30,922 bases of DNA from a bacterium (lineage in GTDB: Bacteria > UBA9089 > CG2-30-40-21 > SBAY01): contig JBFLYA010000019.1 of assembly GCA_040757115.1 (NCBI GenBank), positions 1 through 30,922 on the forward strand. The letters run 5' to 3'. Positions 8,908 to 30,339 of this stretch are shown piece by piece. The position numbers and the translations under genes are program-made. A model generated the notes under the pieces. It had not been told where the DNA came from. It made no database searches and saw nothing but the letters and a program-made list of their open reading frames with translations. Positions within the stretch are counted from its first letter, which is position 1. Each line of letters opens with the position of its first letter.

Positions 8908-9357
8908 GGTAGTGTCTTAATCTATCATAAAGGTTAAAATAGTGTATAGGGTTCTGCAAAATAGGATTTGAGGGAGACAACAATAAATATCAAATATTAA
9001 ATATCAAAATGCAAAATTACAAATCAAATTTCAAAGAGGAACTAGCAGGGTTTCTCAAAGAGTTGGAGGAATTTGGTAATATCTTTGCTTCAAGTATTTT
9101 AACGCTGAAAGGAAAGAGATAATTTTACTGAACTTTGGCAAAGATAGTTTATAGTTGATAGTTTATAGTTGATAGTTGATAGTTGAAGGACTATAAACTA
9201 TACACTATAAACTATACACTATACACTATAAACTATAAACTATACACTATAAACCCTAAACTATAAACGAGTTTTGCATTTTGCTCTTTGGAGGAAATCC
9301 CTTTTGGACACCAAATCTGCATAGATTTCACTATTAGAGTTATTTTCAGACAGCACC
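8908..9357. mobile_element. Nested palindromic element A with a near-perfect 8-bp flanking duplication
   Basis: The ends are GGTAGTGTCT (8908-8917) and AGACAGCACC (9348-9357), near-perfect inverted repeats. The subterminal blocks match element B, including TAATCTATCATAAAGG on the left and TTTCACTATTAGAGTT on the right. The flanks are AAATTTTC (8900-8907) and AAATATTC (9358-9365), a 7/8 match consistent with a target duplication. Inside is a second inverted layer, CAAAATGCAAA (9005-9015) against TTTGCATTTTG (9273-9283). The core is a palindromic array of TATAGTT/AACTATA units. No coding capacity is seen. This fills most of the 764-bp gap 8691-9454. Confidence 0.75.
9144..9267. repeat. Palindromic short tandem array (TATAGTT / AACTATA)
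   Basis: The left part (9144-9186) repeats units such as GATAGTTTATAGTT. The right part (9190-9267) repeats the complementary ACTATAAACT and ACTATACACT units about seven times. The whole array can fold into one long hairpin. The units are too short and too uniform for a CRISPR and have no spacers. Confidence 0.85.
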
Positions 9358-12094: not shown

Positions 12095-14167
12095 TTATGA
12101 GTGTTTCTCTTCTTTATGTTGTTGGATAATTTTTTCTGCAAGTTGATGCGGGATTTCTTCATAATAGGCGAATTCAGCGTGATAAATTGCCTTACCACGA
12201 GTAATCGAACGCAATGAGGTAGAGTATTTATACATTTCTGATTGAGGGACAAAGGCATTGACTACTTGAATTCTACCCAGCGGCTCTATTCCTTGAATTC
12301 TACCTCGTCGGCTATTCAAATCTCCAATAACATCACCCATATATTCTTCAGGCACCTTTGCTTCAACCTTCATAATTGGTTCAATAAGAACTGGATGTGC
12401 ATCCTGAAATGCCTCTTTAAAGGCAAACGACCCGGCTAAATTAAAGGCAATATCCGACGAATCTACTTCATGAAAACTACCATCATATAAGATAACCTTA
12501 ACCCAGAGAATAGGATAGCCCGCTAATATTCCTTTTACCATTGCCTCTTTTACGCCTTTTTCGATAGATGGAATATATTTAGCCGGGATAGCCCCGCCAA
12601 AGATTTTATCTTCAAATTCAAATGTGGTTTCGGAATTTTGAGGTAATGGTTCAATTTCTATCAATGCATGTCCGTATTGTCCTCGACCACCTGTTTGTCG
12701 TTTGTATTTTCCTTCACCTTTAGATTTGGATTTAATCGTTTCTCGATATGGCACTTTGGGCCTTTCAATATTTACCTCTGCCCCAAACTTTTTTTGTAAT
12801 TTGTGAAGCATTACATCTAAATGCAATTCACTCATTCCCGAAACAATAGTTTGACCTAACTCATGGTCATAGCGAATCTGAAAGGTTGGGTCTTCATCAT
12901 GAAGTCTTGATAAGGCAAGACTCATTTTCTCCTGGTCTTGTTTTGTTTTGGGATTAACCGCAACCTCAGCGGTTGATTCAGGAAAGATAATATTTGGGAA
13001 CTCAATATGGTCATTTGGCGAACATAATGTATTTCCAATAAAAGCACCTTTAAATTTGACCAAAGCCCCGATGTCACCACAACCAATCTCTGGAATATCA
13101 TTCCGATTTTTACCCATAATCTGACAAATTTGTGAAACTTTTTCCTTTTGATTCTTGTTTGGATTATAGATTTCATCACCACTATGGACTATGCCGGAAT
13201 AAACTCTAAAGAAAGTCAATTCACCAATATACGGGTCAGTAATAACCTTAAATACTAAACTACTAAATGGTGCAGTCAGAGAACATATTCTTTTTTTATC
13301 AGGGATAGTTCCAACAATCTCCCCTTGCTCAATTGGCGCAGGGAAAAGGTCTATTATCATATCTAATACCGCAGATACGCCAATATTGTTATAACTTGAA
13401 CCACAAACTACAGGAATAATCTTCCTTGATTTAACACCATTGGTTAAACCAGTTATAATTTCACTTTCATCCAGGGTCATATTTTCTAAGTATTTCTCAG
13501 TCAATTCATCTGATGTTTCGGCTATTGCCTCTAATAATTTTTCTCGAAACTGATTTACCTTATCCAATTCATCCTGGGGAATTTCTCCTTCTTCACTTTT
13601 TCCATCTTTGTAAGTATAAGATTTTAGTTTAATTAAATCAATTACCCCTCTGAAATTTGCTGATTGGCCTAAAGGTAATTGAATAGGAACGATATTAGAT
13701 TTTGAATCGAGGTGTTGTTTTGTTGTCTCTAATATTTTATAAAAATCAACATTTTCTTTATCCATTTTGTTGACAAAAATTATTCGCGGGAGGTTGTATT
13801 CATCTGCATATTTCCAGGCTATTTCAGTACCTACCTCTACACCCGATGTGGCATCTATCAAAACCAGACAGGCATCTGCTACTCTTAATGAGCGAATTAC
13901 CTCTCCAAGGAAATCAGTATAGCCTGGCGTGTCGATAATATTAATTTTATGATTTCTCCAATTCAGATAGGCTAAACTTGCATTGATAGATATTTTTCGT
14001 TCAATTTCGCTTGGGTCATAGTCAAATATAGTATTTCCATCATCTACTCGACCTAATCTATTAGTTACTTTAGTGTTAAAAAGTAAGGCTTCTGCAAAGG
14101 AAGTCTTTCCAGTGCCTCCATGTCCAACAATACCTACATTTCTGATATTTTGTGGTTGAAAACTCAT
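12095..14167 (-). CDS. EF-G-like translational GTPase (probable FusA2-type paralogue)
   Basis: The 690-residue protein has the full EF-G domain order. The G domain contains P-loop GHGGTGKTS (residues 15-23), DTPGYTDF (79-86) and NKMD (133-136). A domain II barrel follows (about 290-390), then domain III with MSELHLDVMLHKL. Domain IV contains RQTGGRGQYGH and GSFHEVDSS, and domain V contains MGDVIGDLNSRRGRIQG. In canonical EF-G the P-loop reads GHIDAGKTT; the GHGGTGKTS form marks the EF-G-like/EF-G2 subgroup, whose role is less clear and may include ribosome recycling or translation under stress. The ATG at 14167 has AAGGAGG upstream and a promoter at 14210-14238. The neighbours are not ribosomal genes, which also argues against the housekeeping fusA. 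Confidence 0.9.
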   Translation of the reverse strand: MSFQPQNIRNVGIVGHGGTGKTSFAEALLFNTKVTNRLGRVDDGNTIFDYDPSEIERKISINASLAYLNWRNHKINIIDTPGYTDFLGEVIRSLRVADACLVLIDATSGVEVGTEIAWKYADEYNLPRIIFVNKMDKENVDFYKILETTKQHLDSKSNIVPIQLPLGQSANFRGVIDLIKLKSYTYKDGKSEEGEIPQDELDKVNQFREKLLEAIAETSDELTEKYLENMTLDESEIITGLTNGVKSRKIIPVVCGSSYNNIGVSAVLDMIIDLFPAPIEQGEIVGTIPDKKRICSLTAPFSSLVFKVITDPYIGELTFFRVYSGIVHSGDEIYNPNKNQKEKVSQICQIMGKNRNDIPEIGCGDIGALVKFKGAFIGNTLCSPNDHIEFPNIIFPESTAEVAVNPKTKQDQEKMSLALSRLHDEDPTFQIRYDHELGQTIVSGMSELHLDVMLHKLQKKFGAEVNIERPKVPYRETIKSKSKGEGKYKRQTGGRGQYGHALIEIEPLPQNSETTFEFEDKIFGGAIPAKYIPSIEKGVKEAMVKGILAGYPILWVKVILYDGSFHEVDSSDIAFNLAGSFAFKEAFQDAHPVLIEPIMKVEAKVPEEYMGDVIGDLNSRRGRIQGIEPLGRIQVVNAFVPQSEMYKYSTSLRSITRGKAIYHAEFAYYEEIPHQLAEKIIQQHKEEKHS

Positions 14168-14209: not shown

Positions 14210-14238
14210 AGAATACAATATATTTAATAATAAGTCAA
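14210..14238 (-). promoter_or_regulatory. Promoter of the EF-G-like gene
   Basis: On the - strand TTGACT (14233-14238), 17-nt spacer, TATTCT (14210-14215), about 43 bp before ATG 14167. The flanking duplication of element C begins only 8 bp upstream of the -35 box. Confidence 0.7.
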
Positions 14239-14253
14239 GAAAAAATTACGACC

Positions 14254-14618
14254 GGGTGTATGTAAAATTTGTGGGTAAAAAATATTGAGGAATATTCATC
14301 TTTTTGCCAATATAAAGAAATAGATGAAATTCAATGCGAAAATTACAAATTCCAAGCACCAAATCTCAAATAAATTCCAAATTCCAATTTCCAAATAAGT
14401 TTCAAATTCCAAAGATTATATGACAACGAGAGGAATTTATTTAGATTTTTCAATAATTGAAGAAAAAATTTTCTTCTTGTATTGTTTGGAATTTTGAATT
14501 TTGGTCATTGAAATTTATTTGTAATTTGGTATTTGTGATTTGGAATTTTGTAATTTTCAATTGATTTAATCGTTACTTCAGACGGCTAAATAGTTACCCA
14601 TAAATTTTACACGCACCC
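14254..14618. mobile_element. Inverted-repeat element C with perfect 8-bp target duplication
   Basis: The termini are 25-bp inverted repeats matching at about 22 positions: 14254-14278 begins GGGTGTATGTAAAATTT and 14594-14618 ends AAATTTTACACGCACCC. TTACGACC occurs immediately outside both ends (14246-14253 and 14619-14626). The interior is another long palindrome of AAATTCCAAA/TTTGGAATTT-type words (about 14337-14415 against 14488-14563). No coding capacity is seen, so it is a non-autonomous, MITE-like element. It accounts for most of the 480-bp gap 14168-14647. Confidence 0.85.
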
Positions 14619-14621
14619 TTA

Positions 14622-14637
14622 CGACCTGCACAGGTCG
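14622..14637 (-). terminator. Hairpin downstream of pmbA, separated from its T tract by element C
   Basis: CGACCTG-CA-CAGGTCG is a perfect 7-bp stem just after the pmbA stop. If element C and one copy of TTACGACC are removed, the - strand would read stem, then TAATTTTTTC, a good intrinsic terminator. In the present sequence the stem is followed by element sequence without a T run. The two-base loop is tight, so confidence is moderate. Confidence 0.5.
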
Positions 14638-17330: not shown

Positions 17331-17602
17331 GTAACCGTTCAGATGATAATTTACCGCAGAGACGCAGAGGAACAGAGAAAATATAGAAATAAATCAGATA
17401 ACATAAAAGATTATTGATGCAGACATGAAAATACATAGGACCTGCTTACCGAATGTTCAGCAGGCAAGCCAGATTTGTTAATCAATTTTAATGTTGTTGT
17501 ACTCAAGATCTTGCCCTGATGAAAATCAGGGATGTTAAGCGTCTCGTAAATAGATTTTAATTTTTTTCTCTGCGTCTCTGTGTCTCTGCGGTGAACGGTT
17601 AC
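17331..17602. mobile_element. Mobile element E: 11-bp terminal inverted repeats, 8-bp target duplication, decayed GxxExxY gene
   Basis: The ends are GTAACCGTTCA (17331-17341) and TGAACGGTTAC (17592-17602), perfect inverted repeats. They are followed inwards by ACCGCAGAGACGCAGAGG on the left and CTGTGTCTCTGCGGTG on the right. TATTTTCC lies immediately outside each end (17323-17330 and 17603-17610). The interior carries a decayed gene on the + strand. The element lies between the tldD promoter and the tldD start, on the leader side of the tldD-ribD divergent region, and with the two promoters explains the 459-bp gap 17320-17778. Confidence 0.88.
17383..17560 (+). pseudogene. GxxExxY-family gene remnant (PD-(D/E)XK-like), copy 1
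   Basis: At 17383-17447 the sequence reads IEINQIT, stop, KIIDADMKIHRT. That is the GxxExxY N-terminus (xINQITEKIIGAAIEVHKTL), in which the Gly is now Asp and the motif is ruined. At about 17477-17510 it reads LLINFNVVVLK and ends DVKRLVNRF with TAA at 17558-17560, the conserved C-terminus of the family. Between them the centre is deleted. Two small palindromes have appeared: CCTGCT/AGCAGG near 17432-17462, and CCCTGAT-GAAA-ATCAGGG at 17514-17531, which splits the C-terminal part. Full-length members are about 125-130 residues, so this copy is dead. Confidence 0.8.
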
Positions 17603-25516: not shown

Positions 25517-26000
25517 GTAACTGTTCACCGCAGAGACACAGAGACGCAGAGAAAAAATTAAAATCTATTCACCAGAGACAGAAATTTCCTTTTTTTTGTG
25601 CATTTTGGGTCTTTCGTTGTTTATTAATCTTTTAATACTTACTTTTGACTAACTGTTTTTAAGCCTTTTTAAACACCGAAAAACACGAAAAAAAGTAACC
25701 GTTCAGGCTATATATCAAAAGTGTAAGAAAGGGGATAAGGAGATAAGAGTGATATGGAGATAAGATAATAGAATATAGATTGAAATTTATAGAAATAGGT
25801 AGAAATTGATTGTGGAAAACAACAAATTTCCATAAATTTCTATTAGTTTCTATTAATTTCAATTTTTTTATAATATCTCCCTATCTCCTTAATCTCCACA
25901 TCTCCTTTTGTTACACCACCTGAACGCTTACGGAAAAAAAGATATTTTCCTCTCTGCGAACTCTTGCGTCTCTGCGGTAAAGGATTACCTGAACGGTTAC
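25517..26000. repeat. Composite nested repeat island D
   Basis: GTAACTGTTCA at 25517 begins an inverted, truncated right end of the GxxExxY element, including AAAATTAAAATCTATT, the complement of the gene's last codons. A second unit runs from GTAACCGTTCA (25695-25705) to TGAACGCTTAC (25921-25931). Inside it, GGGGATAAGGAGATAAG (from 25731) pairs with CTATCTCCTTAATCTCC (about 25881-25897). Inside that, GAAATTTATAGAAATAGG pairs with CCATAAATTTCTATTAG. A third terminus, TGAACGGTTAC, ends at 26000. GAAAAAAA occurs at 25687-25694 and 25933-25940, but it is low-complexity and one base off the right end. Together with 26074-26196 it explains the 782-bp gap 25433-26214, which holds no gene. Confidence 0.7.
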
Positions 26001-26073
26001 ATAAAGAGATTAACCTCGTAGAGATGTTCTGTTGGTAGAGAGAGGTTTTACGAAATTCAAAATATGATTGTCA

Positions 26074-26214: not shown

Positions 26215-27153
26215 ATGCGTTTTTTAGATGTTAAAACAGATTATGCCTTCAAAAAGGTTTTTGGCTCTCAAGGGAGTAAGGATATCCTTATTAGCTTTCT
26301 TAACTCGGTGATTGATTTTAAAGAGACTGAAAAAATCGTTGATTTAGTAATCGTTGACCCCTACCAAATACCATTAATCAAGGGGATGAAGGATACCTAT
26401 GTCGATGTTAAAGCCAAACTCTCAAACCAGAAGAATGTCATTATCGAGATGCAGGTTTTGAATGTAGAAGGGTTTGAGAAAAGGATTTTATATAATGCGG
26501 CTAAGACATATTCAGCTCAGCTAAAAGAGACAGAATCATTTACCAGCCTTGAACCTATTATTGCTCTAACCATTACGGACTTTATCATGTTCGAGGATGT
26601 AGATAAGGTTATCACCTATTTCAATCTCATTGAAAAGGAGACTTTAATCAAATACCATGATGAAATCGAACTTGTTTTTATCGAATTGCCCAAATTCAAG
26701 AAGAATGAGGATGAGCTGGATTCAATCAAAGACAAATGGATATATTTTATAAAGAATGCAGGCAGACTTGAATATACTCCAGAGAGCTTAGTTAAAGAGA
26801 TAGAAATAAAGGAGGCATTTGAAATAGCCAATACAGCGGGGATGAGTGAAAAGGAGTTAGAAATTCAATATAAGCGGCACGATTTTATCCGAATGCAAAG
26901 AGGTGCGATAGAGTTTGCCTTAAAACAAGGGTTAAAACAAGGAATAGAAAAAGGAATACAAAAAGGGTTAAAACAAGGAATACAAAAAGGATTAAAACAA
27001 GGAATACAACAAGGCAAAATAGAAGTAGCGAAAACTCTTTTGAAATCAGGCGAGAAAGTTGAAAAAATATCACAGGTAACGGGATTAACAATAGAGGAAA
27101 TTAGTAACTGTTCACCGCAGAGGCGCAGAGGAAGAGAGAAAACATGGAAATAA
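26215..27153 (+). CDS. Rpn-family PD-(D/E)XK nuclease (recombination-promoting nuclease/putative transposase)
   Basis: The 312-residue protein begins RFLDVKTDYAFKKVFG, the hallmark of the Rpn/PDDEXK_2 family. The nuclease core follows: DTYVDVKAKL (Asp) and NVIIEMQVLN (E-x-Q in place of E-x-K, which is common in this family), then KRILYNAAKTYSAQL. Residues about 238-272 are a tandem array of LKQGIQKG-type units, which Rpn proteins often carry near the C-terminus. Family members promote RecA-independent recombination in Escherichia coli and have been linked to phage defence. The start has AAAGGAG eight bases upstream. The last 15 residues (from NCSPQRRRGRE) are encoded by the left end of element G, so the original tail was lost when that element arrived. 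Confidence 0.9.
   Translation: MRFLDVKTDYAFKKVFGSQGSKDILISFLNSVIDFKETEKIVDLVIVDPYQIPLIKGMKDTYVDVKAKLSNQKNVIIEMQVLNVEGFEKRILYNAAKTYSAQLKETESFTSLEPIIALTITDFIMFEDVDKVITYFNLIEKETLIKYHDEIELVFIELPKFKKNEDELDSIKDKWIYFIKNAGRLEYTPESLVKEIEIKEAFEIANTAGMSEKELEIQYKRHDFIRMQRGAIEFALKQGLKQGIEKGIQKGLKQGIQKGLKQGIQQGKIEVAKTLLKSGEKVEKISQVTGLTIEEISNCSPQRRRGREKTWK
26921..27015 (+). repeat. 24-bp in-frame tandem repeat in the Rpn gene
   Basis: About four imperfect copies of a 24-bp unit with words TTAAAACAAGGAATACAAAA encode LKQGIQKG repeats. Copies differ by only a few bases, so the number of units could change by slippage or recombination without breaking the frame. Confidence 0.85.
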
Positions 27154-27366
27154 ATCAGATAACAGAAAAAATTATTGGGGCAGCAATTGAAATACATAAG
27201 ACATTAGATTCATGTCTATTAGAATCTGCATAGGAAGAATGAGGAATAAAAGGATAGGTTTATTGATCAATTTTAATGTTTCTGTTCTAAGAGATGGAAT
27301 TAAGCGTATAGCCAATAGATTTTAATTTTTTCTCTGTGTCTCCGCGTCTCTGCGGTGAATAGTTAC
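27104..27366. mobile_element. Element G: GxxExxY-carrying member of the GTAACCGTTCA family
   Basis: The ends are GTAACTGTTCA (27104-27114) and TGAATAGTTAC (27356-27366), inverted with one mismatch, followed inwards by ACCGCAGAGGCGCAGAGG and GTCTCCGCGTCTCTGCGG. The left end overlaps the final codons of the Rpn gene. No flanking 8-bp duplication is seen. With the hairpins at 27452-27495 and 27519-27546 it explains the 429-bp gap 27154-27582. Confidence 0.82.
27144..27325 (+). pseudogene. GxxExxY-family gene remnant (PD-(D/E)XK-like), copy 2
   Basis: ATG 27144 opens a frame reading MEINQITEKIIGAAIEIHKT followed by LDSCLLESA. It stops at TAG 27231, where the family has the Tyr of the GxxExxY signature (ESAYEECL). 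In a second frame 27257-27325 encodes GLLINFNVSVLRDGIKRIAN with RF and TAA, the intact C-terminus. About 75 central residues are deleted. The N-terminus preserves G12 and E16 better than copy 1 does. GxxExxY proteins are small and assigned to a PD-(D/E)XK nuclease family (PF13366); their biological role is not established. Confidence 0.88.
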
Positions 27367-29482: not shown

Positions 29483-30268
29483 ATGCCAATTATTACTTTA
29501 ATCACAGATTTTGGGCTAAAAGATAATTATGTCGGGATAATAAAAGGAGTAATCCATTCAATCAATCCTGAGGTAAAAATAATTGATATTACTCATCTTA
29601 TAAATTCTTATAGTCTGGTGGAAGCAGGCTATATTCTCAAATCTTCTTTCAATTATTTCCCGAAAGGAACAATTCATATTATTATTGTTGACCCTGAGGT
29701 TGGTAGCCAGCGTAAAATTATTTTACTAAAATCAAAAGATTACTATTTTTTGGCTCCAGATAATGGAATTTTAAGTTTTATCTTGGATAGATTTAAAGAG
29801 ATAAAAATTGTTGAACTGACCAATAAAAAGTATTTCCTGCAGGAAGTTAGTCAAACCTTCCATGGAAGAGATATTTTTGCTCCGGTAGCCGCTTATTTAA
29901 GTTTGGGTAAAAACATTGAAGAATTTGGTCCTGAACTAAATAAAATAAAAACACTTGCTCCTGAATTTAAACCTGAATTTAATAAAGATAAAATAGTTGG
30001 TCAGATAATCTATATCGACCATTTTGGAAATCTAATTACGAATATTGTCAAAGAAGAATTTACTTTTGATGATTCTAAAGTGTTAATTGAAATAGCAGGG
30101 CAGGAAATAAAAGGTATTAACAAAACATATAGTCAGTTAAAACCAGGAGAACTCTTAGCCTTATGGGGCAGTAGTAATCACCTGGAGGTCGCCGCAAATC
30201 AAGCTAATGCTCAACAATTACTTAAAATTGAAAAGGGAAAAACAGCAGTCATAATTCGTTATTTGTAA
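29483..30268 (+). CDS. SAM hydroxide adenosyltransferase (DUF62 family)
   Basis: The 261-residue protein begins ITLITDFGLKDNYVGIIKGV and has IIIVDPEVGS, FLAPDNGILS, FHGRDIFAPVAAYL and IYIDHFGNLITNI. These are conserved features of the SAM hydroxide adenosyltransferases, which convert SAM and water to adenosine and methionine, and of their fluorinase and chlorinase relatives. The family's N-terminal and C-terminal domains are both complete. Without the halogenase-specific insertion, hydrolysis is the most likely activity. Its TAA stop (30266-30268) lies within the terminus GTAACCGTTCA of element H, so the repeat supplies the end of the gene. Confidence 0.9.
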   Translation: MPIITLITDFGLKDNYVGIIKGVIHSINPEVKIIDITHLINSYSLVEAGYILKSSFNYFPKGTIHIIIVDPEVGSQRKIILLKSKDYYFLAPDNGILSFILDRFKEIKIVELTNKKYFLQEVSQTFHGRDIFAPVAAYLSLGKNIEEFGPELNKIKTLAPEFKPEFNKDKIVGQIIYIDHFGNLITNIVKEEFTFDDSKVLIEIAGQEIKGINKTYSQLKPGELLALWGSSNHLEVAANQANAQQLLKIEKGKTAVIIRYL

Positions 30269-30339
30269 CCGTTCAGGTAGTCCTTTACCGCAGAGATGCA
30301 GAGGAACAGAGTCTCTGTGTCTGTGCGGTGAACAGTTAC
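30265..30339. mobile_element. Element H: minimal 75-bp member of the GTAACCGTTCA family
   Basis: The ends are GTAACCGTTCA (30265-30275) and TGAACAGTTAC (30329-30339), one mismatch when paired. Inside, ACCGCAGAGATGCAGAGG pairs with CTCTGTGTCTGTGCGG. Nothing is left between the two arms, so it is a solo hairpin with no GxxExxY sequence. It supplies the stop of the upstream gene and lies 15 bp from the next start. No target duplication is seen. Confidence 0.82.

Follow-up and report, generated by a model that had tools for sequence, protein, structure and literature searches.

The window analysed here, a stretch of 30,922 nucleotides of bacterial DNA, carries a gene for elongation factor G (EF-G) and, upstream of it on the same strand, a gene of the pmbA/tldD family. 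The interval between the two genes is occupied by a short element without a gene, which is flanked on both sides by the same 8-bp sequence and is bordered by a predicted promoter at one end and by a hairpin at the other. The features of this locus are as follows.

12095..14167, minus strand: gene for elongation factor G; the targeted promoter lies upstream of it (NF009381, E 6e-274; PF00009/PF03764)
14210..14215, minus strand: predicted -10 hexamer TATTCT, 17-nt spacer
14233..14238, minus strand: predicted -35 hexamer TTGACT, directed towards EF-G; its distance of 15 nt to the element end is made up of the 8-bp duplication and a further 7 nt
14240..14245, minus strand: T6 tract, possible terminator tail, now apart from the hairpin
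14246..14253, no strand: TTACGACC, copy of the target-site duplication on the promoter side; the word is present once in the sister species
14254..14618, no strand: 365-bp non-coding element, very probably a miniature inverted-repeat element (MITE) of the ISKra4 group; two species have copies of 93-98% identity at other loci
14254..14278, plus strand: terminal inverted repeat type A, GGGTGTATGTAAAATTTGTGGGTAA, the end facing the EF-G promoter
14339..14555, no strand: element interior (element positions about 86-302), a dispersed genomic repeat; most of 88 matches are confined to this interval
14594..14618, minus strand: terminal inverted repeat type B, GGGTGCGTGTAAAATTTATGGGTAA
14619..14626, no strand: TTACGACC, copy of the target-site duplication on the pmbA side; the word is present once in the sister species
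14622..14637, minus strand: hairpin CGACCTGTGCAGGTCG downstream of pmbA, 6-bp stem, 4-nt loop
14648..15952, minus strand: pmbA/tldD-family metalloprotease gene, upstream neighbour (PF19289, E 1.6e-65)

The element at 14254-14618 is mobile. A preliminary description of the window had reported a gene-less element of 365 bp with 25-bp ends matching at 22 of 25 positions and a perfect 8-bp duplication, TTACGACC, all of which was borne out. The inverted repeats (14254-14278 and 14594-14618) start with GGG and are 88% complementary, the end sequence being GGGTGYRTGTAAAATTT; no open reading frame of at least 80 amino acids lies between them, and a comparison of the window with Rfam was negative. A degenerate 25-mer derived from both ends matched twice in the window and not at all in 100 shuffles, with up to 3 mismatches allowed. 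Copies of 365 bp and 98% identity are present elsewhere in the window's own genome (G000, 4.3 Mb; C50:18631-18995 and C123:3537-3901), and the genome of a sister species (G001) holds further ones of 93-98% identity (C31, C246, C271, C374, C431). The DNA flanking these copies varies, and the same ends also enclose other interiors of 224-405 bp (C58, C106, C146, C50:11576); overall, the set of ISKra4-type MITEs spans about 200-445 bp and comprises many subfamilies whose interiors are unrelated.

The copies in both species, with their different flanks, carry 8- and 9-bp duplications. Perfect examples are TTACGACC, CTGACCGCT, GTTACCAAT and ACCGATAGA, while the pair ATTTGAAAC/GTTTGAAAC differs by one mismatch. 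Across G000 and G001, duplications of 8 or 9 bp were found in 10 of 12 paired copies (the exceptions being C50:11576 and C159), two of the 9-bp ones among these ten with one mismatch, so that the length of 8 bp given earlier holds for the window copy but not for the family. The sister species also preserves what appears to be the empty site: its pmbA/EF-G interval has the same neighbours and a single TTACGACC and lacks the MITE, from which it follows that TTACGACC is a target duplication and not a part of the element; in agreement with this, the word does not belong to the element in its other copies, which the preliminary description had named as a finding that would have refuted it. In two further genomes, G002 and G003, pmbA and EF-G lie on separate contigs, and no empty site can be obtained there.

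Some observations concern the composition of the element and its relatives. The interior at 14339-14555 is a partly palindromic AATTCCAAATTCCAA repeat that recurs at dozens of other loci. Tandem TATAGTTTATAGTTGATAG repeats are found at 9144-9268 of the window, and the same motif fills the interiors of the MITE copies C146 and C31. Relative to the interior, the A and B ends of C19, C50:18631 and C123 of G000 have the reverse placement of those in C159, a pattern resembling an exchange of ends through recombination.

A regularity common to many insertions emerges when the flanks are read outward from the element ends. In 27 of a set of 86 non-redundant flanks, the distance from the element end to the start of TTGAC, the core of a -35 box, is exactly 15 or 16 nt, whereas shuffled flanks gave a mean of 0.145 and a maximum of 2 (2000 trials); every other offset accounts for 0-2 flanks, and extending the range to 15-17 nt raises the count to 29. 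Promoters with at least 10 of 12 matches at 15/16 nt occur in 24 flanks (shuffle mean 0.1), and in 23 of the 29 promoter-facing flanks the -35 and -10 hexamers are separated by 17 nt. Both end types, A and B, face promoters, and the elements thus stand in either orientation upstream of sigma-70-type promoter sequences, all of which are predicted from sequence. By eye, a -35-like hexamer could be recognised at 15-17 nt in 13 of the 17 insertion sites listed for the window's own genome. Since an insertion contributes two flanks, of which a single one faces a promoter, the fraction of insertions that are phased exceeds the fraction of flanks. At four of these 17 sites and in many flanks of the sister genomes, the phased position lacks a -35; such flanks are partly the non-promoter side and partly sites that truly lack one, e.g., G001 C246.

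The distance to the promoter also follows the length of the duplication. Copies with an 8-bp duplication lie 15 nt from the -35 hexamer (3/3; C19, C106, C146) and those with a 9-bp duplication 16 nt (4/4; C50, C58, C123, G001 C271); a fifth case of 9 bp and 16 nt, G001 C431, has TTGCAA instead. In these seven copies the offset tracks the duplication length, so that on the promoter side the duplication invariably ends 7 nt away from the -35. This covariation is an observation of the present analysis, as the published account gives only a range of 15-17 nt (PMC3942029). Selection against insertions inside promoters or genes could sharpen the phasing, but a window of 1 nt is not expected from selection alone.

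At the locus itself, the predicted EF-G promoter (TTGACT-17-TATTCT, 14238-14210, minus strand), whose -10 hexamer ends 42 bp upstream of the start codon, had been missed in the preliminary description. Taken as a lone site it is unremarkable, and it becomes credible through the phasing seen across the copies. Neither the core promoter nor the 15 bp preceding its -35 was disrupted by the insertion, and this sparing would explain why such copies are tolerated.

The transposase is indicated by one copy in the window's own genome, C159:2287-2731, which has the same ends and whose left subterminal 70 bp are 94% identical to those of the window element. Its degenerate frame aligns with the final 44 positions of NF033572, the model for ISKra4 transposases (E 1.4e-17), followed by ISLre2 (E 2.6e-7) and ISH6 (E 1.2e-4), and the same ISKra4 transposase tail adjoins such ends at C132 and at G001 C311. 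Because C159, between the same ends, holds a broken transposase of the ISKra4 family (Mutator superfamily), the window element can be assigned with confidence to the MITEs of that family. The IS256 family also belongs to the Mutator superfamily and makes duplications of 8-9 bp, a length compatible with ours, and one IS256-type transposase relic (C232) is present. We nevertheless judge an IS256 origin very unlikely: neither the DNA near the C232 relic nor the contig listing revealed a copy of the MITE ends around it, no IS256 model was reported for the C159 relic, and IS256 insertions show neither a conserved motif in the flanks nor a fixed phase relative to promoters (PMC3942029).

The preliminary description had proposed to look for a transposase gene with the same ends, and what the four genomes that carry such ends (G000-G003) provide is the ISKra4 relic and no intact gene. 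No autonomous copy was found in the window's own genome, in 192 relatives, in species-level genomes (exact 22-mer) or in viral contigs. As multi-copy insertion sequences are often collapsed and lost from MAGs, this missing partner is weak evidence. Among the 193 genomes searched, the MITE ends are confined to four of one family, and in the species-level collection, from which records very near the window's own genome had been excluded, the exact 22-mer occurred only in MAGs labelled Nitrospira sp. Bin_21_1 and bacterium Yes70-31. A separate ISKra4 insertion sequence at C195 of G000 served as a local control for the behaviour of the family: it is 1664 bp long and frameshifted, begins with GGGTGTGG (GGGTGT) and is flanked by a perfect 9-bp duplication, ATATCTTTT, while its inner end sequence differs from that of the MITE. 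This element and G001 C404 were rejected as the autonomous partner, both being other ISKra4 elements with different ends. A second Mutator-type insertion sequence lies at about 639-2299 of G000 C221, with ends CGACCTGTGAAATAGGT and a perfect 8-bp flank AAAGATTT; a 21-bp palindrome, TCGACCTGTGAAATAGGTCGA, which contains the end of this C221 element, occurs seven times in the genome.

The window contains a second repeat family, with GTAAC (GTAACCGTTCA) ends, to which the ends of the 365-bp element are unrelated, as had already been recognised. It had also been proposed that one transposase moves both families, given that each shows an 8-bp duplication in the window, and the two are indeed nested in each other at several loci. 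The common ground is limited to the duplication length of the window copy. The GTAAC family has duplications of 8 bp in 14 of 15 pairs and of 7 bp in one, against 8 and 9 bp for the window family; TTGAC at 15/16 nt was found in 0 of its 51 flanks against 27 of 86 (Fisher p = 8e-7); and the relic between the MITE ends is of the ISKra4 and not of the IS66 type. Neither a GTAAC-ended insertion sequence with an ISKra4 transposase nor the same -35 phasing in both families was seen. A transposase common to both is thus highly improbable.

GTAACCGTTCAGG ends number 360 in the genome. A candidate for moving the GTAAC family is IS66, relics of whose transposase are present there; GTAA ends together with 8-bp repeats are IS66 features. 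The window element has GGGTG ends instead, and duplications of both 8 and 9 bp. Within the window, the GTAACCGTTCA family was noted at 17331-17602, 1742, 25517-26001, 27104-27366 and 30264-30339. Its 8-bp duplications are often T-rich (TATTTTCC, AATTTTTT, CACTTTTT), and the family may prefer T tracts, perhaps terminators. A 12-bp tandem repeat at 26908-27039 of the window lies inside the open reading frame 26215-27153.

On its pmbA side, the insertion parted a hairpin from a T tract. The preliminary description had drawn the palindrome CGACCTGCACAGGTCG with a 7-bp stem and a 2-nt loop, which is impossible; it folds with 6 bp and a 4-nt loop. Without the insertion, the sequence of the pmbA strand would be CGACCTGTGCAGGTCG-TAA-TTTTTT, with the T/U tract beginning 3 nt past the stem and a fold of -7.9 kcal/mol (z -2.4). 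The suggestion that a terminator was split stands as regards the separation of hairpin and T tract, while an intrinsic terminator after pmbA is plausible but weak. The T tract also adjoins, just upstream, the promoter of the next gene, EF-G, which was the target of the insertion. At G001 C90, a different insert of about 400 bp sits between the hairpin halves, between CGACCTGTATG and CATACAGGTCG, in the loop of the pmbA hairpin; this small site has accordingly received two independent insertions, the MITE of the window and the unrelated insert of G001.

One could suppose that terminator hairpins (CGACC palindromes) are the actual target of the element, the nearby promoter being incidental, for CGACC is found in the duplications of two copies (C19, C58) and within an inverted repeat in C19. 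The remaining duplications (CTGACCGCT, TTGACAAC, GTGTATTA, ACCGATAGA) have no motif in common, most copies are phased to TTGAC at 15-16 nt, and the majority of copies are located at promoters without any hairpin, all of which makes hairpin targeting a very poor prospect.

We are thus confident in regarding the window element as a promoter-targeting MITE of the ISKra4 group that is mobilised by an ISKra4-type transposase. The transposase would act on the MITE in trans and would recognise a promoter, or the RNA polymerase bound there. The strand cut on the promoter side would be fixed 7 nt upstream of the -35 hexamer, the other strand would be cut 8 or 9 nt further out, and either end of the element could be joined at the cut site. 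In the case of the window, the element would have landed in this way between pmbA and EF-G, parting the weak hairpin from its T tract. We tentatively speculate, and consider it possible though not probable, that the transposase is tethered to the complex of sigma-70 RNA polymerase and promoter instead of reading the DNA letters, with a promoter-side cut rigid at 7 nt and a far cut that slides between 8 and 9, and that the scattered MITEs form a family-wide insulator layer which resets the region upstream of many promoters.

Promoter-phased insertion is rare among bacterial transposons, and the MITE copies constitute a natural set of promoter marks. They point to a geometric rule, in which duplication length plus 7 gives the distance to the -35, and which allows promoter prediction in uncultured genomes as well as tests of how the transposase finds its target.

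Bacterial MITEs such as Correia elements and Nezha are, like the window element, short, gene-less and multi-copy, with inverted ends and a target duplication; to our knowledge, they are not phased to promoters. The open-access literature that we searched yielded no promoter-targeting ISKra4 MITEs, and the word MITE is absent from the principal study of the group (PMC3942029). There, the insertion sites of TnGBS/ISLre2 and of members of the ISKra4 group were shown to lie 15-17 nt ahead of the -35 in sigma-A promoters, and it was suggested that the TnGBS transposase makes contact with RNA polymerase in its initiation complex (Guerillot et al., 2014; PMC3942029). The ISLre2 family and the TnGBS conjugative elements (p-MULT 3) resemble the window family in this fixed-distance insertion. 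Unlike it, they are mostly found in Firmicutes and are nearly always oriented with IR-right towards the promoter, whereas both ends of the window family face promoters, and for the C159 relic the ISKra4 model outscores that of ISLre2.

Every testable feature of the ISKra4 group (p-MULT 4, prokaryotic Mutator-like) fits the window family. The group makes repeats of 8 or 9 bp, has inverted repeats of 18-39 bp with conserved G/C at their termini and, when these are 83-100% complementary, is found in both orientations, with promoters on both sides (PMC3942029); the window family has 25-bp repeats, 88% complementary and with terminal G/C, duplications of 8 and 9 bp, insertions 15-17 nt upstream of the -35 in either orientation and a transposase relic in a sister copy. 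It differs from the group in being without a gene, in its size of about 200-445 bp with many unrelated interiors and in having no intact autonomous partner in the bins. Promoter-phased insertion, already known for ISs and ICEs (PMC3942029), is here encountered in MITEs, with many interiors and within one uncultured bacterial family.
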